IMG/VR virus record: IMGVR_UViG_3300042301_001872
Coordinates: 1-30,441 of that record
Length of the DNA stretch: 30,441 nt
DNA from: a virus
Reading direction: 5' to 3' (one strand)
The notes beneath the pieces were generated by a model. The model had not been told where the DNA came from. It worked only from the letters and a program-made list of their open reading frames with translations, and did not search any database. Position numbers and translations under genes: made by a program. Shown here in pieces: positions 1 to 23,350 of this stretch; positions within the stretch are counted from its first letter, which is position 1, and the number at the start of each line of letters is the position of its first letter.

Positions 1-183
1 GGTCGTGGTCAGTGCTGCTCACACGAGATCGAGTACTTCGCGATGGCGTGCGCCGACAACACTCTCATGGAGCTTCTTGGCAAGCACTGGGTCGCGACCG
101 GCGAGAGCCTTTTGTCATCGCACAAGAAGCCTGTCGAAACTTTGATCGACGAAATCGAAGCAGCACTGGAGAAGCAACCATGA
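1..183 (+). CDS. 3' end of an unknown protein (start outside window)
   Basis: Frame 1 is open from the window edge to a TGA at 181-183, giving the last 60 residues of a protein. The visible part is mixed charged and hydrophobic and has two adjacent cysteines near its start (GQCCSH). I see no motif that I recognise. Its stop overlaps the start of the following 25-aa ORF in an ATGA arrangement, which supports this frame as coding and suggests translational coupling. An in-frame ATG exists at 43, but the frame continues upstream of it, so the true start is probably before the window. Confidence 0.55.
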   Translation, partial: GRGQCCSHEIEYFAMACADNTLMELLGKHWVATGESLLSSHKKPVETLIDEIEAALEKQP

Positions 184-257
184 CCCTGCGCCAATTCCTT
201 TTTGACAACTTCGGCTGGGATATTTACGACTGGGATCCAGACGACATTCGATTTTAA
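180..257 (+). CDS. 25-residue small protein, unknown
   Basis: An ATG at 180 overlaps the preceding TGA (ATGA) and has GGAG about 8 nt upstream. The 25-residue product is rich in Phe, Trp and Asp and ends in an acidic stretch (WDPDDIRF). The same frame has an ATG at 12, but a start there would overlap the upstream gene almost entirely, so I prefer the coupled start at 180. No function can be assigned. It could be a real small phage protein or a chance ORF; the stop/start overlap is the main support. Confidence 0.4.
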   Translation: MTLRQFLFDNFGWDIYDWDPDDIRF

Positions 258-548
258 GAACACCCCTCACTCGGCTCCTTTCGATCTCGACAACCACGGC
301 GGGATAGACGGCTAGGCAGCGGAAGTATCAAGCACCTCTGGGTGAAGGGGACCATATGGTACTAAGGTGTGAATGCCTAGCAACGTGGCAACCAGCGACG
401 ATTGATCGCAGCGGCGAACAGAAAAACAACAGCCGCATCTCTCTGAAAATACAGACCTATTTATTTCAACTCGCGTCTCTGCGTTAGTTGAAGCAACCAG
501 TCTTTGGCCGTAAAGCCGGAGGTCCACCCCCATGTAATGGAGCTTTGA
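258..548 (+). promoter_or_regulatory. structured 5' leader of nrdJ (candidate riboswitch-like element)
   Basis: No gene is seen in this 291-nt stretch, but the + strand can form several helices. An 8-bp stem pairs 311-318 (GCTAGGCA) with 374-381, and inside it 332-337 pairs with 365-370. Further stems are 411-415/432-436 (GCGGC/GCCGC) and 465-471/486-492 (TTCAACT/AGTTGAA), the latter with an inner CGC/GCG. Last, 512-516 (AAAGC) pairs with 542-546 and TCCA 523-526 with TGGA 538-541. This final hairpin hides the TGGAG ribosome-binding site (538-542) of the nrdJ ATG at 549. AAAG 512-515 can instead pair with CTTT 502-505, so two exclusive folds are possible. The gene downstream needs cobalamin, and AGCCGGAG (514-521) resembles part of a B12 box. 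However, the conserved GGGAA and GCCACTG blocks of the classical cobalamin riboswitch are not present. Confidence 0.5.
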
Positions 549-2489
549 ATGCAACTTCCTACTGACTACCAGTCCTACATCCACAAATCACGCTACGCCC
601 GATTCCTCGACAAAGAAGGTCGGCGTGAACACTGGGACGAAACCGTCTCTCGCTACTTCGACTTCTTCGAGGAAGAGCTGGAGACACACCACGGACACAA
701 GGTGTCTGCTGGCCTTCGCAGCGAGCTCGAGGATGCGGTCCTCAGTCTCGCCGTCATGCCTTCGATGCGTGCTCTCATGACTGCGGGTGAAGCCCTGCGT
801 CGCGAGAATGTCGCTGGCTACAACTGCAGCTACCTGCCCATCGACCGGCCCAAGGCGTTCGCCGAGGCGCTCTACGTCCTGATGTGTGGCACTGGCGTCG
901 GCTTCTCCGTCGAGCGACAGGAGATCAACAAGCTACCGACCGTACCAGAAAGCTTCGACCGCACCGCTTTCGACGTGATCGTCGGCGACAGCAAGCTTGG
1001 CTGGGCCGAGGCCTATCACACGCTTCTGACCTGCCTCTATGCAGGGACGATTCCGAACATCGACTACAGCCAGATTCGCGCAGCCGGTGAGCGCCTCAAG
1101 GTCTTCGGTGGCCGTGCATCTGGTCCTGAACCTTTGCGCGACCTGTTCGAATTCACGATCCGCACGATGCGCAATGCTGCCGGTCGCAAGCTGAACAGCC
1201 TCGAGGTTCACGAGATCGTCTGCAAGATCGGCGAGATCGTGGTGGTTGGCGGCGTGCGTCGATCCGCTGAGATCAGCCTGTCGAACCTGTCCGACCAGCG
1301 TATGCGCGATGCAAAGTCTGGTAACTGGTGGATGGACAAGCCCTACCTTGCGCTGGCCAACAACTCCGCTGCCTATACGGAGAAGCCCGAGGTCGGCCAG
1401 TTCATGGACGAATGGTCAGCACTGTATCGCTCACGCTCAGGCGAGCGCGGTATCTTCAACCGTGAAGGTGCGATCAACAAGATCCTCCGCCTTGGTCGCC
1501 GTGATCACCGTTATGACTTCGGCACCAACCCCTGCGGCGAGATCGTGCTGCGCCCTCGTGGCTTCTGCAACTTGACGGAAGCTGTGGTGCGGGAGCATGA
1601 CGGCCTCGGTGATCTCAAGGAGAAGGTGCGCCTCGCCTCGATCCTTGGCACTTGGCAGTCCACCCTCACCCGCTTTAATTTCATCGAGCCTGAGTGGCGT
1701 CGCAACGCCGACGAGGAGCGCCTTCTGGGCGTGTCTCTCACCGGCATCTACGACAACGCACTGATGCGCGGTGACAACGGCCTCGACAAGCTGGCATCGA
1801 CGCTCGAGAAGCTGAAGGCATCAGCCATCAAGGCAAACCGCCTCGAGGCTCACGACATCGGGATCAATCCTTCTGTCGCAGTAACGACGGTCAAGCCCTC
1901 TGGCACGGTGTCTCAGTTGGTGAACAGCCCGAGCGGTATCCATCAGGGCCATGCCCAGTACTACATCCGGCGCGTGACTGGGGACAACAAGGATCCCATC
2001 ACCACCTTCATGTCGGATGCTGGCATTCCCAACGAGCCGCACGCAGCGAAGCCTCAGCAGATGACGGTCTTCTCCTTCCCTGTGAAGCTGGGAGACGGCA
2101 CCGTCACACGCGATGAGGTGACTGCCCTGCAGCATCTCGAGCTGGTCCGCACCTACAACACGAACTGGTCAGAGCACGCTGTGTCCTGCACCATCAGTGT
2201 GAAGGAAAACGAATGGCCCAGCGTTGGTGGTTGGGTGTTCGATCACTTCGACGACATCTGTGGCCTGTCGTTCCTGCCGCACTTCGAAGGCGATAGCTCG
2301 TACACGCAGATGCCGTACGAAACCATCGGCGCGAAGGACTATGCAGCAATGCTGGCCCGTATGCCTGAGCACATCGACTGGTCGGACCTCGCCTTCTACG
2401 AGAAGGGTATCGACACAGTCACCGGCACCCGCGAGTTTGCCTGCGTTGGCAACACCTGCGAGATCGTCGAGTCCACTGAATCGCTTTAA
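549..2489 (+). CDS. nrdJ: class II (adenosylcobalamin-dependent) ribonucleotide reductase, monomeric type
   Basis: This 646-residue enzyme should reduce ribonucleoside triphosphates to deoxynucleotides for phage DNA synthesis, using adenosylcobalamin as radical source. The residues expected from the Lactobacillus leichmannii enzyme family are visible. C93 (YNCSY) and C340 (GFCNL) would form the active-site disulfide pair. C329, within NPCGE at 327-331, would be the thiyl radical cysteine, with N327 and E331 beside it. GVGFS (116-120), FGGRASGP (186-193), GGVRRSAEISL (234-244), VKPSGTV (448-454) and AVSCTI (544-549) are typical family blocks. A C-terminal C-x4-C pair (C632, C637) is the expected re-reducing dithiol. 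The ATG at 549 follows TGGAG (538-542), which lies inside a hairpin. Length and motifs indicate an intact enzyme. It is followed by a GC-rich hairpin and a DnaA-like gene on the same strand. Confidence 0.95.
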   Translation: MQLPTDYQSYIHKSRYARFLDKEGRREHWDETVSRYFDFFEEELETHHGHKVSAGLRSELEDAVLSLAVMPSMRALMTAGEALRRENVAGYNCSYLPIDRPKAFAEALYVLMCGTGVGFSVERQEINKLPTVPESFDRTAFDVIVGDSKLGWAEAYHTLLTCLYAGTIPNIDYSQIRAAGERLKVFGGRASGPEPLRDLFEFTIRTMRNAAGRKLNSLEVHEIVCKIGEIVVVGGVRRSAEISLSNLSDQRMRDAKSGNWWMDKPYLALANNSAAYTEKPEVGQFMDEWSALYRSRSGERGIFNREGAINKILRLGRRDHRYDFGTNPCGEIVLRPRGFCNLTEAVVREHDGLGDLKEKVRLASILGTWQSTLTRFNFIEPEWRRNADEERLLGVSLTGIYDNALMRGDNGLDKLASTLEKLKASAIKANRLEAHDIGINPSVAVTTVKPSGTVSQLVNSPSGIHQGHAQYYIRRVTGDNKDPITTFMSDAGIPNEPHAAKPQQMTVFSFPVKLGDGTVTRDEVTALQHLELVRTYNTNWSEHAVSCTISVKENEWPSVGGWVFDHFDDICGLSFLPHFEGDSSYTQMPYETIGAKDYAAMLARMPEHIDWSDLAFYEKGIDTVTGTREFACVGNTCEIVESTESL

Positions 2490-2493
2490 CCGT

Positions 2494-2513
2494 GAGGGGG
2501 CTTCGGCCCCCTC
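2494..2513 (+). terminator. GC-rich TTCG-loop hairpin between nrdJ and the DnaA-like gene
   Basis: GAGGGGGC (2494-2501) and GCCCCCTC (2506-2513) form a perfect 8-bp stem closed by a UUCG tetraloop, 5 nt after the nrdJ stop. No T-run follows, so it may be an mRNA-stabilising or attenuating hairpin rather than a full intrinsic terminator. Confidence 0.45.
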
Positions 2514-2530
2514 CCAACAGGGAAGTTGGT

Positions 2531-2821
2531 ATGTTCGTATCTGATTTAATTAAAGAGACATGCGAAGTCTTTGACGTCTCACGGCGCGACCTCATGGGTC
2601 AGTATAGGTTCCCCTTCATAGTTCGCGCACGCTTCGCCCTGTACAAGGCTCTGCGCATGAGGGGTATGTCACTGCCCAAGATTGCTGGGGCCACTGGCCG
2701 TCACCACACAACAGTGATGAACGGCCTCGAGAAGGCTGACCTTATGATGAAGAACTGTCCTGACTACAGACAGAAGGTGGAGCGCATCGCTTCACTTTCG
2801 CGCCAGAATTTTGAATTCTGA
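2531..2821 (+). CDS. stand-alone DnaA domain IV-like DNA-binding protein
   Basis: The 96-residue product resembles the C-terminal DNA-binding domain of the replication initiator DnaA and lacks the AAA+ ATPase part. It starts with a helix and VSRRDLMG, then has a long helix with arginines (IVRARFALYKAL) and MSLPKIAGATG. The DnaA-type signature appears as RHHTTV, where host DnaA usually has DHTTV. It may bind DnaA boxes and so affect host or phage replication or transcription; this role is inferred. I chose ATG 2531 over the in-frame 2492 start because AGGGAAG (2519-2525) sits 5 nt upstream and 2492 lies in the preceding hairpin. Its 3' end overlaps the convergent nuclease gene by 30 nt. Confidence 0.75.
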   Translation: MFVSDLIKETCEVFDVSRRDLMGQYRFPFIVRARFALYKALRMRGMSLPKIAGATGRHHTTVMNGLEKADLMMKNCPDYRQKVERIASLSRQNFEF

Positions 2822-3208
2822 GATCGGGATCTCAACCATAGGCTCTTGATCCTCCCAATCCCCACGCTTTGTTGTTCCACCGAACACGATGTCTATGGGG
2901 GTTGGGATGTTCACGTATCCCACGCAGTCCTGCCACTCCACGATCAGCAGTGAGATGATCGACGTGTCCCGACACAGGGCAGCGAGGTTCAAGTACTTGT
3001 GCAGGGACACTTGGTAGGTGGGGTAGGTGTGGATCGGGTTGCCCCGCGACTTGAGCTCAGCCCATGCCATGACCTTCTTGTCACGCAGCAGGGCGAAGTC
3101 CACAGAGTAGCGACGCGGTAGCTTCACCACGCCGACACCCCACTTCTCTGCCAGCGCAGAGATTACAACACGCTCATTGGCTAGTGTGTGTTCGTTCTCA
3201 TAGATCAA
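2792..3208 (-). CDS. PD-(D/E)XK nuclease-like phage protein
   Basis: I read this as a 138-residue protein starting at a TTG (3208) that overlaps the upstream TGA as TTGA. A longer reading from ATG 3286 (164 aa) would overlap the upstream gene by 82 nt, unlike any other junction in this operon, so I place the start at 3208; this remains uncertain. The central part has the spacing of a PD-(D/E)XK nuclease core: an aspartate in YSVDFAL, then a strand with the E-x-K pair in AWAELKSRGN. A predicted active-site glutamate earlier in the chain (ENEHTLANERVV) would fit motif I. It is the last gene of the long - strand replication operon and ends inside the convergent DnaA-like gene. A DNA-cutting role is inferred from the motif only. 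Confidence 0.65.
   Translation of the reverse strand: MIYENEHTLANERVVISALAEKWGVGVVKLPRRYSVDFALLRDKKVMAWAELKSRGNPIHTYPTYQVSLHKYLNLAALCRDTSIISLLIVEWQDCVGYVNIPTPIDIVFGGTTKRGDWEDQEPMVEIPISEFKILARK
2804..2834. repeat. two short hairpins at a convergent gene junction
   Basis: CAGAATT (2804-2810) pairs with AATTCTG (2814-2820), and TGAGATC (2819-2825) is followed by its complement GATCTCA (2828-2834) across a two-base gap. They sit where the + and - strand operons meet and overlap. They could slow transcription from either side, but no T-tract supports a true terminator. Confidence 0.3.
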
Positions 3209-13893: not shown

Positions 13894-13923
13894 CCCCGAC
13901 CCTAGTACGGTCGGGGTTTTTTT
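13894..13923. terminator. bidirectional intrinsic terminator
   Basis: CCCCGACC (13894-13901) and GGTCGGGG (13909-13916) form an 8-bp stem with a 7-nt loop. On the + strand a run of seven T (13917-13923) follows. On the - strand, after CAGGG, a run TTTTTATTT follows. It would end the - strand late operon just after the giant gene and block + strand read-through from int. Confidence 0.85.
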
Positions 13924-16900
13924 ATTCTTCGGATTCCTCTTCCTCTGTGTAATAGGTGGGAGCCGCCTTAAATCCCTTGGCGTACATGTACCCCTGCTTT
14001 GCCAGCTTCTTGCGTTCAGCGTCCAGCGTCTTGAGCTTCAGCTTCTTCTGAGAAGGGGTCATTTTGGGATCGGTGAGTATCGCGTCCCTCTGCTTGTTGA
14101 TCTCGCTGATCTGTCGGCCAATCTTGCCAAGCTGCTTACGGGCAGACATGGGAGCCTTCATCTCCTCGAGATATTCAGCCGCCTCTTCTTCCCGCTGCTC
14201 GGCGAGCAGCTTCTTGTAGGCGCGATTGGTCTGGTCGGCCTCACGCTTGACCTCATAGAACTCGCCAACAAAGCGGCTGGGTGCGGAGTCGGCATCCTTA
14301 AAGAACCTCTCGACCCCACTCGCTGAAGCAAGCAGATCGCCGATGTGGTAGGGGTCGCCGAATAGGCCGTCAGCCTCTTTGGGTATAGCCCCCATTCCGG
14401 CCAGAACCGTATCGATCCCAGCCAGCATACCGGCACCCATGCTGCCAAGGTGGCCGCGAACCAGATGGTCCACGTTCTTTGGGGAAACGCCCAAGGCACC
14501 GCCAACAGCCTTTGCCGTTTCCGTCGTGCGCTCGTCATACCGCATGGCTGCGGGGAGGTTCATGTCCCCCATGTCATTGATCGGCATTCCCCTGAACGTG
14601 TCGTAGTTGAACGCTACCTCAGTCGTAGGCTTGACTGCCTGCGGTATGGGGTTGAGGGCGAACGTATTGAGGAAGGCGAACTGCACTTTCTTGGAAAGCT
14701 GAGCCCCGTCTCTATCCTTGATGTAGTCATACATCGCAACTGGGAACGATCCAAAGATGGTGCCAACTTCAAACGGCCTCGGGAGCACAACGCGAACATC
14801 TCCAATGTAGAGGATGTCGTTGAGCATCTTGTTTTCCGGCGTCTCGTTCTCCCACCGCTCGTCGTCTTGGAACAGCGCATACACTGCAGTAGCAAAGGCA
14901 GAGTACAGAAGGCCTCTGAAGACAACCTTTTTGCGAAGACCCATGATGGTGGCTTCGTTTGTTTGGTTTTCAGCAATCCTATAAAGGCCTTGGATACGTG
15001 CATTGAGGAACGGGATGATCGGCACAAGGCTCCTTACCGCCTCACCAATGTATCCCTGACCTGCGCCTTTGCGCCCAAAGTTTGTCAGGTTCATGGCCTC
15101 ATAGGCTGCGGTCTTTTCGCTGCCAGTCTTTTCGAGGACGCTGTTGTACAGAACTACGCGCTCTGCAAACTCGCTGGCCTCGCCAAGGCGCTCCATCATC
15201 ACGTAAGCGCCCTTGAACCGATCCAGAATATCCCGCGTTATACCGTGACCGCCTTCGCCTCGACGATAGCGACGACGGATCTCGTCAGCATAATTCTTGT
15301 CGCCCATACCATAGTCATAGCCACCCATGCCGGTGTTGACCTTGATCATGCGCGTTGCTTCATCGCCTCTAAGCGCGTCACGCATTCCCTTAAACGTGGC
15401 TATAGGTCCGCTGAGCTTTGTGTCTGTGGTAACAAACGTGCTGATCTTGCCGCGATACATGTTGGCGAGAATGAAGCTGGTCGTCATTGTTATGCCAGCC
15501 CTGAAGACCCCCGCTATGGAAGACATCGCTTTCATCCACACGCCCATCTGCTGCGGACCGAGGGCGGCGATAGCAACCCACACAGCAGGATCTTCGATCT
15601 TGTAGTAGACAGGCTTGCCTTCCACGCGAAGGCGCATAATGCCCTTTCCTTCGGGGGTCGGAACCCTCTTGCCGACGTCGTCGATGCCGAGCTCGTTCAA
15701 GGCATCGACAACATCAGCCGCCTCTTGCAGGGCAAGGTTCTTTCGTGACGCCACCAAGATAGACTGTAGGTTCTTGACGACGTTTTCATAGAGGTTGCCT
15801 ATGTTGTTGTCGCTGCCCTTCAGCTTCAGGTCGAGGCCTGACTTGGGGTTATTTATCGCAGCCTGAACCTTGGGACCAAGCACCTCCAAGTCACCATCGT
15901 CTTGTTCGAAGGCGCGGTAGTACGGGATGTAGTCCATAGACTTCAGCTTTTCACCAAAGTCTGAGGTCATGAGTCCGGTGTCCACCGCATAGTCGAGGAT
16001 GGCGCGGTTGAACTCTTGGTACTCGTCAAAGACTTGTCCGAATACCGCGTCAGCATTCCGCAGTGTCTCAGCGATCTCTGCATCCGTCAGCTCTGGGAAG
16101 CCTACACGCCCCTCCCTTCGTAGCTGCGACTCACGCCGAGATACTGCGTAGGTCTGGAACGCTTCCGAGTTGGCTTCCCCAATAGGCTCGAAGATCTCGA
16201 TCAGGCCCTTGATGTTCTCGTTAATAGTCGTGAGCTCGCCGTCGTAAACGGGAGGGCCGTACTCGAGCGCAGCCTGAATGACGCCGCTGGACTGCGACAC
16301 CATTTCCATCATCCGGCCAACGCTTGAGCCGTCTGTGGGAACTCTGCCGTCTGCAGGGTCAACGCCACGAAGGGCTGCATCCAAGAACTTGTCGAGGATG
16401 AGGGTTCCGTCTTTGTCGTTTACTACGTTGCGTACGAGGGCGCGACGGCGTGACTCATTACCCTGCCTGCCAACTAGGTTGTCGAGAAAAGTCGAGAAGA
16501 ATGACTTCTTGTTCGACCGAGCAACGACCTTGTCCAACATGCTTTCTGAAACGCCGCCAGTGTTCCGCGCACGACGGCCAGAGAAGCGCACGCCTTCGCC
16601 GTCCATCATCTCGCGGATGCGGTCGGCATTCTCGTTGCTGATCGGCACAGCTTCGTCGATGACCGTCTCGGTGTCGCCGTTGCTGAAGGGATCGCTACGG
16701 CCAGCACGCTGCGGAGCGAGTTGAACGCCAGTGAGATCCTCGATCTGAGCCGCCCCGTTCTGGCGGATAAGAATGACGGGGATCTGGTCGATGCCAGCCG
16801 CCTTAAATGCAGTCATGCGGTGACGGCCTTCATGGCCCATTACGCGGCGAGGCTGTTCCTTGCCGGATGCCATGTAAGGATCCGCTATCTCGAGGAACAG

Positions 16901-19900
16901 CGGCTGGCTCACCTGACGCAGCTCGTCGACGTTGAGCTCGCGAGCGCGGGTCTTCGTGGGATCCATCGTGGCCAGACGATCACGACCATCCTTCGACAGA
17001 GTCAGGCCGAGGAACTGGTCGGGCGACATGAACGTCATCCAGCCCTTGGACTTCTTGTCGTCGAATGGGTAGGTGTAGTCTTTCAGGATCTGTTCGGTGC
17101 GCTCTGGGGTGTAAACGGCCCTGCTTGAGGGTGTCTGCTCCCCATCTACAACTCGCTCGGTCCATGTCCACTCAGGCATCAACCCAATTTTTTGGGGCGC
17201 AAATACAGTTTCGAACAAGCCTGCTGTGCGGTTAGCCTCGCCGTATGGGCCAAAGTTAAGCCAACTGTTTTGGCCGCGAGTTTCGCTAGTAAGTGCTGCT
17301 AGGGCGGGACCGGTGAACAGGCGAGCGTGCGCCTGCCACGCATTCTCCTCACCACGCGAACGGAACCCAGCGCCCTCCAGACCGTGACCAAAGGCGTCGT
17401 GGACTGCGCGGAACAGGTCGTTTGCCAGAACGGGCCGCATGACACCGCTCTGGTCGCGCCACTTGAGTCCGGTGTCAGCGAGCAGTGGATTGGTGGAGGC
17501 GCGGAGGGCGGAGCCATCACTGCCGTACCCTTCCACGGTCGAGTACACAGCCATGCGCTTATTGTTGCGCAAGTCTCGCATAGCCTCCCACGGGTTGGTG
17601 CCGTAGGGGTCGAAGTCGTTGCCGAAGAAAGTGAACTCGTACCCAGCCTCGACTAGGGCATCGTACTGCTTGCGCGTTTGGCGGATGAGGTCTTCATACG
17701 CCTCGATCACAGCGGGGTCGTTAGGGGCGTCTTCCATCTCCTCGTAGGCTTGAGCCACCCTGCGAGAGAACGCCTCGTCGATTGCTACATACTCGGACTG
17801 CCGAGTAAGCGGTATACCGTTTTCTAGGGCGTAGTCTTCCGCGACCTTGACGAGGTCGGCGTTTGGACCTCCGCCGCGAACCTTTGGCGCACCCTCAAGC
17901 GGCGCAATTTCTCCGCCTCGATTGCCTGCTCCTCCGTCTCGTCGTCCGGTTCGACCGGAGTAACGGGTGCCGCGCTCGATGAGGCGGTTTCTGACGTCGG
18001 CTGGAAGGGTTCGGCGAACTTGATCCCCTTCTTCTTCAACTGCTCCCGCAGCCAAAGCTTGGTCTCCGGCGACAGCGGCTTGTCCGGCACCGCGCCCACC
18101 ATCTCCCTGTCGTGGAGCGCCGTCGCTTCTTCTGTTTCCTGCATCGGTGTTGGCTGACGTGGCATTGGTATTCCTTACTGCTGCTAGTTCGGCGAAGGCA
18201 GTGTCATAGGACACATTGAGGTTGGCCTCAAGCTTTCCTTCTTTGAACAGGTTTACTAGATCTTTCTCTGGATACCAGACAAGCGCCTGCAAATCGGCGG
18301 GGGTGACATTATACCCCTTTTGCGCAAGCATTTTAACTGAGCCTGCGACAACGTCCCTGATCCACTTTCTCTGAGCGCCGTTGGTGGGTGCGTCGTTCGG
18401 CTTGAGTTGGCCTGCAAGCGCAACCGCCTTGAAGGCCCAATCAGGCTTGAGACCTTTTTCCGTAATCTCGTCAGAGCTCATGCCCTGCTTTTGCAGTGCC
18501 TTATACTGGCGTTCCCATTCTGCCGCCAACTGGATACCAAGCCCAACAACCTCTGCGTCGGTAGCTTCGTTGAAGCGCTCAGCGTACCCGTCTGGAACCT
18601 TTGTTGACGGATGGGCGTCTGCCTCGACTGCCTCACGCAGGCTTGTAATCTGCTTGTCAATTGCAGTGTCATTGCCAACAAGGGTGCCGGTCAGGCGACC
18701 CCATAGGCGCATGAACCACAGGTCAATAGTGACCGGCGAGAAGTTGCGGTTTAGGTTCTGATAGAAACCATTGCCGATCTTGGGTCCAAAGATAGCGGAG
18801 CCGTAGACCATCTCGCTTGCGAGCTCGCCACTAATTTTGAATGGCGGCTTATCAAGGCCGTCCTTAGCCTGCACCTTGCGACCAAGTGCATTGAGCTCAG
18901 CTACAGTAAACTCAGTGTTGAGGAACTGACCAAGCTCTCCGACCTTGCCATCAAAAACCTTCTCAAGCATGTAGTTTGCAAGAGCAAGGTTGTTTGTGAT
19001 TGACGGGGCTTTGGTGCCGTACTTCTTTGACGGATCGAACCTGCCGGTCTCAATGAAGGTGTCGAACTGCTCTGTCGTTGCCCTAGCGTTGTCGCGAACC
19101 TTCATGTTTTGCGAGGTGATGGAAAGCGCCAGAGTGAACATCACTCGAGCATCTTCCTTGCTATTGATACCGCGACTGTTGCTTAGGCGCTTCGCAATAT
19201 CATCGTCCCGAAGCATCGGGTAAATTCTAGACGCTTCCTTGATCGCGTCTTCAATAGCCTTGGTGTACCAGTCCAACGCAGAGCGTTTGCCGGTAGCCAT
19301 CTCTTTCAAGATCGCTGCCTCAGCCTCTGCAGCAATTGAGTCCTTCAGATACTTGTCGGTCTTTGGGCTTGGACCAGTGATTCGATCAACGCCAAAGCGA
19401 TTCATAAGCGCTTTTCGCGTCCGGTTCTGAATGAACTGAACGGTGTCCTTAAGCCCCATCCTTTCGTCTGGAACCTGCAGAGCCTTCGTGTTTCCGTTGT
19501 CATACAGAAACGGAATGGTTGACGTCGCATCAATCGGCGGATTGATCTTTTGTTTGCCGATTGATGGGTGCTCATACGTAGGCTTCTGACGGCCAGAGTA
19601 TCTTTCGAAACCCTCTGCGCCGACAAGTGCCTTTGCGAGCTTGGTGGGTGCGGTGACATCATTCAGATACTCTTGCGTTTCCCCGCTACGGTAGCCTTCA
19701 AAGTAGTCCGCCAATGACATTACGTTATCGTTGCGGAGAAGGTTTCCAAACTCGCGACGGAAGCGCTCGATCATGTCGACAATGCGAGCAATGGTAGCCT
19801 TCAGACCGCGCATCGGAGAGCCGGTCTCCTTGGCGTTGACCAAAGCACCAAACGCAACGGCCTGTGCTTCATAGAAAGCAAGTGGCTTATCGCCGAAGTT

Positions 19901-22900
19901 TGCAACTAGGTCATCATAAAAGCTGACGCCATTGCCCATGTCTGTCGCCTTCAACACGCGCAAGATGCTTGCGTCGAATTGGTCGACGGTCATCCCATCT
20001 TCGAACACGTTATTGAGCATATCGAATGCTTGCGGGTCGTAGACCTCTAGCATGTCTTGGATAACGTGGAACGCCTCATGTGCAGCGCTTTCGCGAGTGT
20101 AAGCTCCCAGATCCTCGCTTAGCGACAGCGTGATAAGGCCACTCATTCCGTTCTGGCTTACATCGTAGATCTCATAGCTGCCTGTATTCTCAGCGCCAAG
20201 TTCAATACCGCTTGCAGCCGCAGCCTTGGCATTCGTAGCTTTGAGTGATGGGACAAAAAGAATATCGACGCTGGCATTCTTCGGCAGCACACGCGACATG
20301 ACATCGCCTGCAGCGAAAGCGTAGTAAAACTGCTTTGGGGTGTAGCCGCCCTGCTTCATAATTGAGCGCAGGCGATTGGCAATAATCCGACCCTGACGCC
20401 CACGAGAAGCGATCTTGTTCAGTCGGTCTTCAATGACCGCTTCGTGATCAATCTTCTTCTCCTTACCCTTAGCCGCTTGGTCCTTACGCGGAGTTGGGTT
20501 GCGCGCTACGATGTCGCTGGCCTTGGTTACCCCGCGACCAACATCGTCAATGTTATTGTTTGTGTTTTCAGGACGAATGGGCCGCTCTTCAGCGGTCGGC
20601 TCAGCCTGCGTTTCAGCTTGTGGCTCAGCTTTGGTGTCGACCTGTTCTGTGGTTGCAGACGCGCCAGTAGCGTATGTGCGCTTCTTACGCTTGGATGTTC
20701 GTCCAGAGTAGCGGGTATTGTCGCCGTCAATCTCACTGTAAATTTCTGACTCTAGATCAGCGGCTGCGTTGTCACGCTGTGACTCGATGGCATCCTCAAT
20801 AGCCGCCATCGCGGTGTCGTGTTTGAAGTCACGGTCGGTCTCGTCCTTGATGGCCTCGTCGATGTCGACGTAAGCGTCTTCATCAATCACGCCTTCTTTG
20901 ATCAGCGTCTTGGCAAGCTTGCGTGCTTCACGAGTATTCTCTGTTTCCTGCACGCGCTCAAGGGCAGCATCAAACCGCTCGTTAAGCTCGATCATGCGCG
21001 GATCGTTGTCGATGTCGACTTCTTCCTCAGCGTCCTGCTGCTGGGCCTCTTCGACCTTCGGCGGTGTGCGCCGTATGGGCGCAGGAAGCTGGCGCTGCGC
21101 GGGAGGTGCGGTGACTTCGGGTGTGCTTGCAGCCTCAACAGGCTCCGGTGCTGGCAAGGCTTCTGCTTGACGGAGCGGTGCCTGCTGTTCTGGAGGAGCT
21201 GGGGCGTCTTCTTGAAACGGAACGACGGAGCGTGACTGGGTACGGTCGACAGACCGGCGCGGGTTCATGCTCGTTCCGACGCCAGCCTTTGGCTTGCGCA
21301 GATCACCAGCCAGATCCTGTGACAGACGAGGCGTTTCTCTTACGAGGCGAGCAAACAAGGTAGACGGATCTACTTGCTCAGATACAGTTTGAACGGATCC
21401 ATCTTGAGCCTGCTGCTCGTACTGAATACTAACTTTGCCGCCTTCAGCGCCGACAATGGTTGCAGCAATTCCGCCAAGATCTTCGCCGTAGTATTCAGGG
21501 TTAAGAAAGAACTGGGGGGTCGGATCAGGAGCGCCTGCGCGAAGATCTTCACGCTGGGTTCCTGCGCCAGTGGCAGTGTCAAACCGCGTTTGACGCACGT
21601 CTGCCATACGGAAAGACTGATCAGTCTCTCGGAGCCTCTGAGCTTCATCTGAGGCTTGGCTCGGATTCATGATAACGCTGCCGTCAGCCACGACCTCACG
21701 ATTGCCGTCTGCCGTTTCTTGCGTCTTCATGTACGGGCGTGCAAAGAAGGTCTCGCCCTGCTGAGCAGGCGGCGTGTAGTTGCTGACGATGTTGCGCAGG
21801 CCGTTGACGAACTGCTTGCCCGTACCGCCCGTCTCCACCGCTTTTGCAATTGAAGAAAGCGCTGGGCTCTCAGCCACAATGGCCGGATCAATCTTGCTCA
21901 GCTCTTCGGTGATCATCTGCCGCGAACGACTGACCGGCGTGTTGCCGCCAATCATTCCGGAGATCCGGCGCACAGCCTCGGGCTCAACGCGAGCAGCTTC
22001 CTCTTGGTTGAGGATACGTGCGACCTGCTGAACTTTCGTCGCGTCGCTTACCGGCTGCGACATGATGTCGGCAATGCGCGGATTGCTCTGGTTGTTGGTG
22101 GCAAACTCGAGGATCTGCGTCGGGGTGTAACTCATCCCGCCAGCGGAAATATTATCCATGCCGCTCAGATCAGGCGCGCTCGGCCCTTCAAGGCGAAGAG
22201 TAGTCTGACCGGCTGTTTGATCTCGCGCCGTAAGGGCGTCAAGGAGCTCGTTGTCCTCTGTACCGCGCTGGGAAGGATCTATTTCACTGTTGGGGTCTTC
22301 CTTGATGAAGCGCCTAGCAACTTCAGTACCGCCACGAAGCACACCGCCAGCAAATCCGCCAAGAGCAAAGTCCTGCAGTGCTGACTGGCCAACCTCTACG
22401 TTCGGGTTGTATACGCCAAGCTCAATGAGGTCTTGAGCAACACCCGCCGCAGCCTCCTGAACGCCTTCTTCAATTGCGCTACCAGCAATTTTGCCAACAG
22501 CACGCTTGCCGCCCTGAGCCATTGCCCTACCAACTGCTGTGGTGGCAAATCGCTGACCAACCATCTCGACAACTTTTTGACCGTAGCCATTTGGAACTCG
22601 AGAAAGCAGACCCTTGACTGGAAGAAGTTCGGAAAGACCGACAGCGCCGCCGAATGTTTCGGCAAGTATTTCCTGACCCGAGGAAACCGTAAGTCCTTGT
22701 TCACGCGCCTGCTTGACGCGCTCGTCTTGCTGATCAACGCCACCACCAAAAGACATAGCGCCGACAGCAGCGCGTACAGGAACAGATGCTATGCCGCCTG
22801 CAAGATAAGGAACTGTTGAACCAAGTGCTTCACCGCCCATTCCGCCATAGCGCAGCATCGCGTTTTGTGTGGCCGCTTCTGGAGCGGCGTACTTTTTATT

Positions 22901-23350
22901 AAAGTCGTCGCGATATTCGCGCACCGATTCGGCAGAGTCATCAAAGCCAAGATAGTCAGCAACACCAGCGACACCGCCCAGCACAGTGCTTACCGCCCCC
23001 CGAGTGGGAGCGTTAACGATTTCGCGGCCAACGTCACCAGCGGTCGTCTTTATCTCCCGCCCTGAGTTGATCTTCGCAAGGATGTCCTCGCGCCTCATCT
23101 CCATAAATTTCAGCGCTTCTGCAGCGGCATTCGCCCCACGACCAGTGAACTCGCCAGCGCGCAGCCGCTTCGAGAGAGCCTGTATCTCAGCTTCGCTCTT
23201 CCTTAGCTCCGCCTGCCACTGCGGGTTGCTCGTCCTTTGTGACCTGTTTTGCTGAGAGGCTGAAGCTGTTCCCGCTTGAGACGAGGACGACGTACCCAAG
23301 TCTTCCCAGCGAGTGGGCGCAAACCGCAGTCTATTATTATTTTCAGACAT
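13922..23350 (-). CDS. giant polyvalent (ejected virion) protein, 3142 residues
   Basis: The order of parts resembles large phage polyvalent proteins that are packaged and delivered with the DNA. A Ser/Gln-rich start is followed by a Gly/Ala-rich hydrophobic region (about 100-340). A zinc-metallopeptidase-like site H1091-E-A-F-H1095 has a possible third ligand in FYEAQAVAFG. An uncharacterised domain contains H1984-D-A-F-G-H1989. A ParB/sulfiredoxin-like segment has GHEGRHR (2172-2178). A C-terminal part resembles large polyvalent protein-associated domain 38 (about 2600-2880, ASEFAERVVLYNSVLEKTG and NLTNFGRKG). Acidic and Pro-rich linkers lie between. R-[YF]-S-G-R motifs occur at 880, 1250, 1796 and 2255. 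The ATG follows AGAAGG by 6 nt. It ends at the terminator. Likely roles are genome ejection or early host takeover; each activity is inferred from motifs. Confidence 0.85.
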   Translation of the reverse strand: MSENNNRLRFAPTRWEDLGTSSSSQAGTASASQQNRSQRTSNPQWQAELRKSEAEIQALSKRLRAGEFTGRGANAAAEALKFMEMRREDILAKINSGREIKTTAGDVGREIVNAPTRGAVSTVLGGVAGVADYLGFDDSAESVREYRDDFNKKYAAPEAATQNAMLRYGGMGGEALGSTVPYLAGGIASVPVRAAVGAMSFGGGVDQQDERVKQAREQGLTVSSGQEILAETFGGAVGLSELLPVKGLLSRVPNGYGQKVVEMVGQRFATTAVGRAMAQGGKRAVGKIAGSAIEEGVQEAAAGVAQDLIELGVYNPNVEVGQSALQDFALGGFAGGVLRGGTEVARRFIKEDPNSEIDPSQRGTEDNELLDALTARDQTAGQTTLRLEGPSAPDLSGMDNISAGGMSYTPTQILEFATNNQSNPRIADIMSQPVSDATKVQQVARILNQEEAARVEPEAVRRISGMIGGNTPVSRSRQMITEELSKIDPAIVAESPALSSIAKAVETGGTGKQFVNGLRNIVSNYTPPAQQGETFFARPYMKTQETADGNREVVADGSVIMNPSQASDEAQRLRETDQSFRMADVRQTRFDTATGAGTQREDLRAGAPDPTPQFFLNPEYYGEDLGGIAATIVGAEGGKVSIQYEQQAQDGSVQTVSEQVDPSTLFARLVRETPRLSQDLAGDLRKPKAGVGTSMNPRRSVDRTQSRSVVPFQEDAPAPPEQQAPLRQAEALPAPEPVEAASTPEVTAPPAQRQLPAPIRRTPPKVEEAQQQDAEEEVDIDNDPRMIELNERFDAALERVQETENTREARKLAKTLIKEGVIDEDAYVDIDEAIKDETDRDFKHDTAMAAIEDAIESQRDNAAADLESEIYSEIDGDNTRYSGRTSKRKKRTYATGASATTEQVDTKAEPQAETQAEPTAEERPIRPENTNNNIDDVGRGVTKASDIVARNPTPRKDQAAKGKEKKIDHEAVIEDRLNKIASRGRQGRIIANRLRSIMKQGGYTPKQFYYAFAAGDVMSRVLPKNASVDILFVPSLKATNAKAAAASGIELGAENTGSYEIYDVSQNGMSGLITLSLSEDLGAYTRESAAHEAFHVIQDMLEVYDPQAFDMLNNVFEDGMTVDQFDASILRVLKATDMGNGVSFYDDLVANFGDKPLAFYEAQAVAFGALVNAKETGSPMRGLKATIARIVDMIERFRREFGNLLRNDNVMSLADYFEGYRSGETQEYLNDVTAPTKLAKALVGAEGFERYSGRQKPTYEHPSIGKQKINPPIDATSTIPFLYDNGNTKALQVPDERMGLKDTVQFIQNRTRKALMNRFGVDRITGPSPKTDKYLKDSIAAEAEAAILKEMATGKRSALDWYTKAIEDAIKEASRIYPMLRDDDIAKRLSNSRGINSKEDARVMFTLALSITSQNMKVRDNARATTEQFDTFIETGRFDPSKKYGTKAPSITNNLALANYMLEKVFDGKVGELGQFLNTEFTVAELNALGRKVQAKDGLDKPPFKISGELASEMVYGSAIFGPKIGNGFYQNLNRNFSPVTIDLWFMRLWGRLTGTLVGNDTAIDKQITSLREAVEADAHPSTKVPDGYAERFNEATDAEVVGLGIQLAAEWERQYKALQKQGMSSDEITEKGLKPDWAFKAVALAGQLKPNDAPTNGAQRKWIRDVVAGSVKMLAQKGYNVTPADLQALVWYPEKDLVNLFKEGKLEANLNVSYDTAFAELAAVRNTNATSANTDAGNRRSDGAPRQGDGGRGAGQAAVAGDQALAAGAVEEEGDQVRRTLPADVRNRLIERGTRYSGRTGRRDGGAGNRGGEIAPLEGAPKVRGGGPNADLVKVAEDYALENGIPLTRQSEYVAIDEAFSRRVAQAYEEMEDAPNDPAVIEAYEDLIRQTRKQYDALVEAGYEFTFFGNDFDPYGTNPWEAMRDLRNNKRMAVYSTVEGYGSDGSALRASTNPLLADTGLKWRDQSGVMRPVLANDLFRAVHDAFGHGLEGAGFRSRGEENAWQAHARLFTGPALAALTSETRGQNSWLNFGPYGEANRTAGLFETVFAPQKIGLMPEWTWTERVVDGEQTPSSRAVYTPERTEQILKDYTYPFDDKKSKGWMTFMSPDQFLGLTLSKDGRDRLATMDPTKTRARELNVDELRQVSQPLFLEIADPYMASGKEQPRRVMGHEGRHRMTAFKAAGIDQIPVILIRQNGAAQIEDLTGVQLAPQRAGRSDPFSNGDTETVIDEAVPISNENADRIREMMDGEGVRFSGRRARNTGGVSESMLDKVVARSNKKSFFSTFLDNLVGRQGNESRRRALVRNVVNDKDGTLILDKFLDAALRGVDPADGRVPTDGSSVGRMMEMVSQSSGVIQAALEYGPPVYDGELTTINENIKGLIEIFEPIGEANSEAFQTYAVSRRESQLRREGRVGFPELTDAEIAETLRNADAVFGQVFDEYQEFNRAILDYAVDTGLMTSDFGEKLKSMDYIPYYRAFEQDDGDLEVLGPKVQAAINNPKSGLDLKLKGSDNNIGNLYENVVKNLQSILVASRKNLALQEAADVVDALNELGIDDVGKRVPTPEGKGIMRLRVEGKPVYYKIEDPAVWVAIAALGPQQMGVWMKAMSSIAGVFRAGITMTTSFILANMYRGKISTFVTTDTKLSGPIATFKGMRDALRGDEATRMIKVNTGMGGYDYGMGDKNYADEIRRRYRRGEGGHGITRDILDRFKGAYVMMERLGEASEFAERVVLYNSVLEKTGSEKTAAYEAMNLTNFGRKGAGQGYIGEAVRSLVPIIPFLNARIQGLYRIAENQTNEATIMGLRKKVVFRGLLYSAFATAVYALFQDDERWENETPENKMLNDILYIGDVRVVLPRPFEVGTIFGSFPVAMYDYIKDRDGAQLSKKVQFAFLNTFALNPIPQAVKPTTEVAFNYDTFRGMPINDMGDMNLPAAMRYDERTTETAKAVGGALGVSPKNVDHLVRGHLGSMGAGMLAGIDTVLAGMGAIPKEADGLFGDPYHIGDLLASASGVERFFKDADSAPSRFVGEFYEVKREADQTNRAYKKLLAEQREEEAAEYLEEMKAPMSARKQLGKIGRQISEINKQRDAILTDPKMTPSQKKLKLKTLDAERKKLAKQGYMYAKGFKAAPTYYTEEEESEE
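17824..18165 (-). CDS. possible nested gene in an alternative frame of the giant gene
   Basis: An ATG at 18165 opens a 113-codon frame inside the giant gene, shifted by one base. AAGGA lies 6 nt upstream of this ATG, preceded by a TAA in the same frame, so it has a normal translation start. Codons in this frame (AAG, GAG, CTG, CCG, ATC, TTC) look like those of the clear genes here, while the giant frame in the same stretch uses many GGA, CAA, GAT and GCT codons and encodes a Gly/Arg/Ala-rich linker. The product is soluble and helical (LSPETKLWLREQLKKKGIKF), with an acidic Pro/Thr middle and a basic end. It has no family I recognise. The giant frame must also be translated, as its RYSGR motif at 1796 lies here. 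Confidence 0.4.
   Translation of the reverse strand: MPRQPTPMQETEEATALHDREMVGAVPDKPLSPETKLWLREQLKKKGIKFAEPFQPTSETASSSAAPVTPVEPDDETEEQAIEAEKLRRLRVRQRFAAEVQTPTSSRSRKTTP

Follow-up and report, generated by a model that had tools for sequence, protein, structure and literature searches.

Short repeated tags at the module joints of a giant phage polyvalent protein: candidate cleavage sites of its built-in metallopeptidase

Introduction

How giant injected proteins of phages are deployed, and what part is played by the metallopeptidases built into them, has been a question since such proteins were described. We address it with a 30,441-base virus record (IMG/VR record IMGVR_UViG_3300042301_001872; this whole stretch of DNA is referred to as the window), which encodes a polyvalent protein of 3142 amino acids (aa) in a single open reading frame (ORF). 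A reading of the window from sequence alone had picked out three copies of RYSGR (residues 880, 1250 and 1796) and one of RFSGR (residue 2255) in this protein, and had suggested that these are boundary tags between domains, perhaps cleaved by an encoded metallopeptidase. Processing of polyvalent proteins by built-in peptidases was predicted in 2017, in a paper that cites DdrB of phage P1 as processed (Iyer et al., 2017; PMC5512222). The searched literature yielded no description of the sites or of their dialects. It is likely, in our view, that a built-in zincin recognizes and cleaves the R[YF]SGR tags, which join the modules of a virion-borne polyprotein.

Results

Four tags in the window protein

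The motif R[YF]SGR occurs exactly four times in the 3142-aa protein, at the four places named above, where 0.005 occurrences are expected from composition, and none of the remaining gene frames in the window contains it. The protein has no [RK][YF]S triplet outside these four tags. A basic or polar stretch follows each of them, as had been noted, and their placement relative to the metallopeptidase (HEAFH at residue 1091), the HDAFGH module and the ParB-like part was also described correctly (Table 1). The tags are encoded by CGC TAC TCT GGA CGA (tag 1), AGA TAC TCT GGC CGT (tag 2), CGT TAC TCC GGT CGA (tag 3) and CGC TTC TCT GGC CGT (tag 4). As codon usage differs among the four, the tag is a feature of the protein, and a DNA repeat or recombination site was ruled out as its origin.

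AlphaFold2 models were made for residues 866-1290 and 1780-2300. Two tags are predicted to be disordered and two lie at the very edge of a domain, so that none is placed inside a fold. The first model has a confident zincin-like core (966-1190), with tag 1 disordered and tag 2 forming a short strand (predicted local distance difference test of the block about 65) between disordered linkers, a strand by which the tag could lie on the peptidase. Tag 3 is disordered in the second model, in which the ParB-like domain ends with a strand formed by the first residues of tag 4. HEAFH (1091-1095) falls in helix 214-239 of the model, which places the HExxH motif on the predicted active-site helix, and its H, E, F and H (alignment positions H226, E227, F229 and H230) are invariant in 27 relatives. 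Zincins such as PPEP-1 and lethal factor predominate among the fold matches of the peptidase model, with Z scores of at most 7.4, too weak to stand alone. Pfam gave only a sub-threshold match to the DUF5700 zinc peptidase in 5 of the 27 relatives, and no PDB sequence matched the peptidase profile.

Module exchange at the tags

A scan with the peptidase recovered 46 loci (loci are given L numbers throughout), and these relatives, including L010, form with the window a set of 47 proteins. In this set, [YF]S.[RK] sites number 146, where 58 are expected; the reversed pattern occurs 49 times. That the tags arose by chance or compositional bias has a negligible probability: the giant protein is rich in R, S and G, but this excess, the expectation of 0.005 in the window protein and the conservation of tags in relatives already refute it. 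A three-class pattern enrichment was uninformative, being dominated by secondary-structure periodicity and conserved domains.

The first homologue, L001 (3489 aa, with ten [YF]S.[RK] sites against 2.0 expected), matches the window protein in three blocks, comprising the peptidase (964-1230), HDAFGH (1825-2036) and a C-terminal region (2346-3118). Unrelated modules are interspersed between these blocks, and YSAR, YSSR and FSQR are among the sites that flank them. The close relatives L011-L028, with peptidases 55-93% identical, have three to six [RQ][YF]S[GA]R tags each. The tag directly after the peptidase is retained through most of the alignment, as RYSGR, RYSAR, QYSGR, EFSSR, EFSAR, LSAR, ASAR, FSAR or FSQR. 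Among 86 non-redundant giant proteins, YSGR is the 4-mer that recurs within the largest number (9). The giant protein of Synechococcus phage MinM2 (L005:7485-15896) has a distant window-type peptidase and contains ESAR four times. Planktothrix Pag-Yong1 also has a peptidase of the window type, and both are culturable.

Relatives exchange modules at the tags. In 13 relatives, 398 module breakpoints were placed. A quarter of them (25%) are no more than 20 aa from a tag, whereas 2000 shifts gave a null mean of 5.4% and never more than 15.6%; at a distance of up to 50 aa the share is 49%, with 13% in the null. A block homologous to the 545-aa module between tags 2 and 3 is likewise bounded by tags in L017, L019 and L022. 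The proposal that the motifs are boundary tags is thus strongly supported by the homologues, both by the breakpoints and by the different tagging of the same modules in different proteins, described below. No enrichment of [YF]S.[RK] was found in the giant LPD38 proteins of Vibrio D274, Aeromonas phiARM81mr, PTXU04, JC1 and Pony, so LPD38 alone does not predict the tag.

Private tag dialects

Other giant phage polyvalent proteins carry private recurring tags at equivalent joints, including YSLR, YSAR, RYSPxR, RKSxDR and EASAR. Relatives that share the HDAFGH module are spelled RYSPxR (L061, L063, L124), [RK][YF]SLR (L070), [KR]LSVR (L091), RSTAR (L112) and EEFSRA (L041), and the tag on a given homologous module changes from one host protein to another. 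The ADP-ribosyltransferase (ART) module PF18760 has a recognizable end, GTFDP.NPDI, with the tag directly after it, so that tags can be read there without picking them by eye. Across 65 non-redundant proteins, 56 recurrences of the tag after the ART end were counted at other places in the same protein; swapping tags between proteins gave 13.2, with a maximum of 35 in 5000 permutations.

QASAR stands at four joints of L036. Two of its joints have homologous counterparts in L038, where NVQASAR is matched by NVEFSAR and KLRALQASAR by KLRIPQLSAR. The spelling has changed in concert between the two proteins, L038 having EFSAR and QLSAR at these joints. In the giant proteins of L105 and L095, [RY]FMPA recurs, possibly a further dialect without serine.

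These observations bear on the idea that the tags are flexible joints or recombination scars of no enzymatic role, a common linker spread by module exchange. Their location at exchange breakpoints would fit, as would the predicted disorder of two of the four. We nevertheless regard this as very improbable, since a passive linker would not track the peptidase clade, and since the codons differ at every site, homologous modules are tagged differently across proteins and each protein has one dialect at its joints.

Covariation of tag spelling and peptidase clade

The HExxH zincin motif is present in most tagged proteins, and the dialect goes with the type of zincin. The peptidase clade is a better guide to tag spelling than either the tagged module or the remainder of the protein. 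In a partial Mantel test on 52 dereplicated proteins, for the final version of which the ParB-like GHEGRHR was taken off the HExxH list, tag correlated with peptidase (r = 0.222) after control for the ART module and the remainder of the protein; the values from 5000 permutations all stayed below this, none being above 0.110. The same test gave 0.139 for tag and ART module (p 0.066) and 0.072 for tag and rest of protein (p 0.08). A pair of loci, L138 and L139, represents a natural swap. They have in common a 690-aa block of 51% identity, which includes a closely similar ART module, and their peptidases differ. L138 has the peptidase SPLAVFFHELTH and ITASRQR on both sides of the ART module; L139 has the peptidase NPIRTLRHESIHALKEL, and its ART module is flanked by FSLR and YSLR.

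Clades were also scanned with the peptidase only. Discovery proteins were left out of the three new clades, and a flank that occurred repeatedly was counted a single time. YS[GA]R was found 35 times in the window clade against 3.1 expected (11x), which is not an independent prediction as this dialect was already known. Tags had been predicted beforehand for the LRHE..HALK clade ([YF]S[LVI][RK], 62 observed, 10.5 expected, 5.9x) and the VFGHE clade ([RK]S.[DER]R, 21 observed, 4.2 expected, 5.0x). Foreign dialects in the window, LRHE and VFGHE clades reached 0.3-1.7x of expectation.

A repeated, protease-matched site at module joints is what a self-processing polyprotein would have, and such sites are present here. 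The suggestion that the encoded metallopeptidase is the protease is partly supported: its role as reader of the tags is backed by the covariation and by the predictions on separate scans (of which the third, described below, is weak). The data show the tags, their position at exchange joints, the private dialects and the covariation with peptidase clade; we infer peptidase activity, cutting at the tag, the scissile bond and the timing of the cut (before packaging, in the virion or after ejection).

The main rival is that the tags are read by another agent that was inherited along with the peptidase clade, such as a host protease, a prohead protease or a docking partner in the form of a chaperone or the ejection machine. 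The dialect could then mark the phage lineage or the host. Prohead proteases commonly process virion proteins, and the tags are short linear motifs that resemble docking motifs. Against such a reader, the tag tracks the peptidase after control for the rest of the protein, and the tags of L138 and L139 differ along with the peptidase despite the long common module block; we consider this alternative unlikely.

At four loci (L066, L128, L174 and L186), neighboring giant ORFs without HExxH use the same dialect as the ORF that bears the peptidase, suggesting that the peptidase acts in trans. Each of these genomes has several adjacent giant ORFs with one dialect and HExxH in only one of them.

Proposed processing and points against it

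A self-processing polyprotein is the most economical account of the tags. The zincin encoded between tags 1 and 2 would recognize the tags, in cis and probably in trans, free itself and split the protein into about five parts: the N-terminal unit (1-880), the peptidase (885-1250), the 545-aa module (1255-1795), the HDAFGH plus ParB-like module (1800-2255) and the LPD38 unit (2260-3142). In this way the ejected polyprotein would be split into effector modules. All tags of one protein would follow the specificity of its own peptidase clade because the sites must fit the peptidase, and a module moved into a protein with another peptidase would acquire the local spelling.

Several observations weigh against this account. 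The tag predicted for the STF.HE[ST]GHFF clade, L[FYMN]Q, reached only 1.1x of expectation after dereplication; a tighter pattern gave 3.8x, but was chosen afterwards, and L[FYMN]Q also matches a conserved LFxRF stretch inside the peptidase domain of this clade (for example, in BPP-1). Permutation in the Mantel test cannot fully remove shared ancestry, and the peptidase may mark the phage lineage. In the window protein, the joint between the HDAFGH and ParB-like modules (residues about 2067-2085, window 17096-17152) is without a tag, although several relatives (L011, L013, L016, L018 and L024) have one before the ParB-like module. There is no clear tag in some HExxH relatives (L047, L051, L052), no repeated tag in P1 DdrB, which has HExxH and is reported to be processed, and none in the known phages F116, 45A6 and DC33. 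As P1 DdrB and several cultured phages have no clear tags, the rule is not universal. In addition, the vRNAP of phage N4, which has such a peptidase, is reportedly packaged without being cut (PMC5512222).

A link to published processing through P1 DdrB, DarA and DarB, Pseudomonas aeruginosa F116, USP_18 and USP_25 was rejected, as no clear tags were found in them. Bbp10 of the culturable Bordetella phage BPP-1 (L404:6682-12840) has a zincin that belongs to the STF.HE[ST]GHFF clade. L[FYMN]Q occurs seven times in this protein, where 1.3 are expected, and one of the seven sites falls within the peptidase domain. The record of Limnohabitans phage DC33 (L407) says Inoviridae; given a 39-kb genome with a tailed-phage-like giant polyvalent protein, this label looks wrong.

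The giant protein and its gene context

The window also encodes ribonucleotide reductase, a toprim/DnaB-type primase-helicase and tail genes, and its source is probably an uncultured podovirus-like phage. The giant ORF adjoins tail/virion genes, and we propose that its product is virion-borne and injected. The protein has the features of the polyvalent class, being multidomain, with LPD38 in its C-terminal part and with modules (HDAFGH, ParB-like and the 545-aa module) that occur in other orders in other phages. Among the relatives, the ParB-like and 545-aa modules are also found in other architectures. The HDAFGH module belongs to phrog_3170, a family of unknown function found at at least 459 viral places, and the best 80 of these are 63-82% identical, unusually high for part of such variable proteins. 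A 432-aa open frame lies antisense within the giant gene (14450-15748, + strand) and is probably spurious.

Table 1. Features of the giant protein gene, in window coordinates
Feature	Residues	Window position	Strand	Basis or context
Giant polyvalent protein, single ORF	1-3142	13922..23350	-	ORF call and LPD38 match (E 4e-32)
N-terminal unit	1-879	20714..23350	-	Common to relatives (71% to L011, 64% to L013)
Tag 1, RYSGR	880-884	20699..20713	-	Before metallopeptidase; predicted disordered
Zincin-like metallopeptidase core	966-1190	19781..20455	-	Confident AlphaFold2 model
HEAFH, putative active-site motif	1091-1095	20066..20080	-	Alignment of relatives
Tag 2, RYSGR	1250-1254	19589..19603	-	After metallopeptidase; predicted short strand between disordered linkers
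545-aa module	between tags 2 and 3	17966..19588	-	Weak DUF7178 match (E 0.03); homologous blocks
Tag 3, RYSGR	1796-1800	17951..17965	-	Before HDAFGH module; predicted disordered
HDAFGH module	1825-2036	17243..17878	-	phrog_3170
ParB-like module	2075-2254	16589..17128	-	ParB/sulfiredoxin-like fold (best Z about 4)
Tag 4, RFSGR	2255-2259	16574..16588	-	C-terminal edge of ParB-like domain, before LPD38 unit
C-terminal unit	2260-3142	13925..16573	-	Conserved across podovirus-like phages; includes LPD38
LPD38		14387-14863	-	Inside C-terminal unit

Discussion

Implications

If the tags are cleavage sites, the question of how these proteins are deployed can be tested at the level of single residues, the sequence allows the mature effectors to be predicted, and tag spelling is a predictor of protease specificity in many clades. 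Polyproteins with co-evolving sites would then be shown to have arisen in tailed phages, where modules are freely exchanged, and orthogonal site-specific proteases would become available as tools. The broader possibility, to which we give an even chance, is that tailed phages use an open modular polyprotein code, in which many zincin clades, each with its own short site, serve swappable cassettes of injected effectors, the spelling is converted to the local dialect after transfer and neighboring giant proteins are processed in trans. Such a code would make many orthogonal pairs of protease and site available at once, and would allow unknown giant phage proteins to be parsed into mature units by a rule based on sequence.

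Comparison with known systems

The polyvalent proteins of Iyer et al. (2017; PMC5512222) are the closest precedent, as they are giant multidomain phage proteins with LPD38, an HExxH peptidase and effector modules. No cleavage site, joint motif or protease-matched dialects were found in that work, and later papers from the same field that were searched add none. No description of joint tags or dialects was found in the searched literature, the coverage of which excludes most subscription journals. In a paper on the P1 virion, the capsid protein is the one protein with a stated cut site.

PPEP-1 and lethal-factor type zincins (M34-like) are the best structural matches of the peptidase model, with Z scores of 6-7, where values below 8 are weak. 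They differ in being secreted enzymes with other substrates. Processing by prohead proteases (T4 gp21 and the phiKZ type) is similar in that virion-packaged proteins are cut at repeated short sites. The prohead protease is a serine-type enzyme encoded by a separate gene, whereas the candidate protease here is a zincin inside its substrate. The polyproteins of eukaryotic RNA viruses, with which no common descent is implied, likewise contain their own protease, and the short sites repeated between their mature units co-evolve with that protease; the system proposed here would differ in residing in a tailed-phage protein, in using a metallopeptidase and in the free exchange of modules, with the site respelled to suit.

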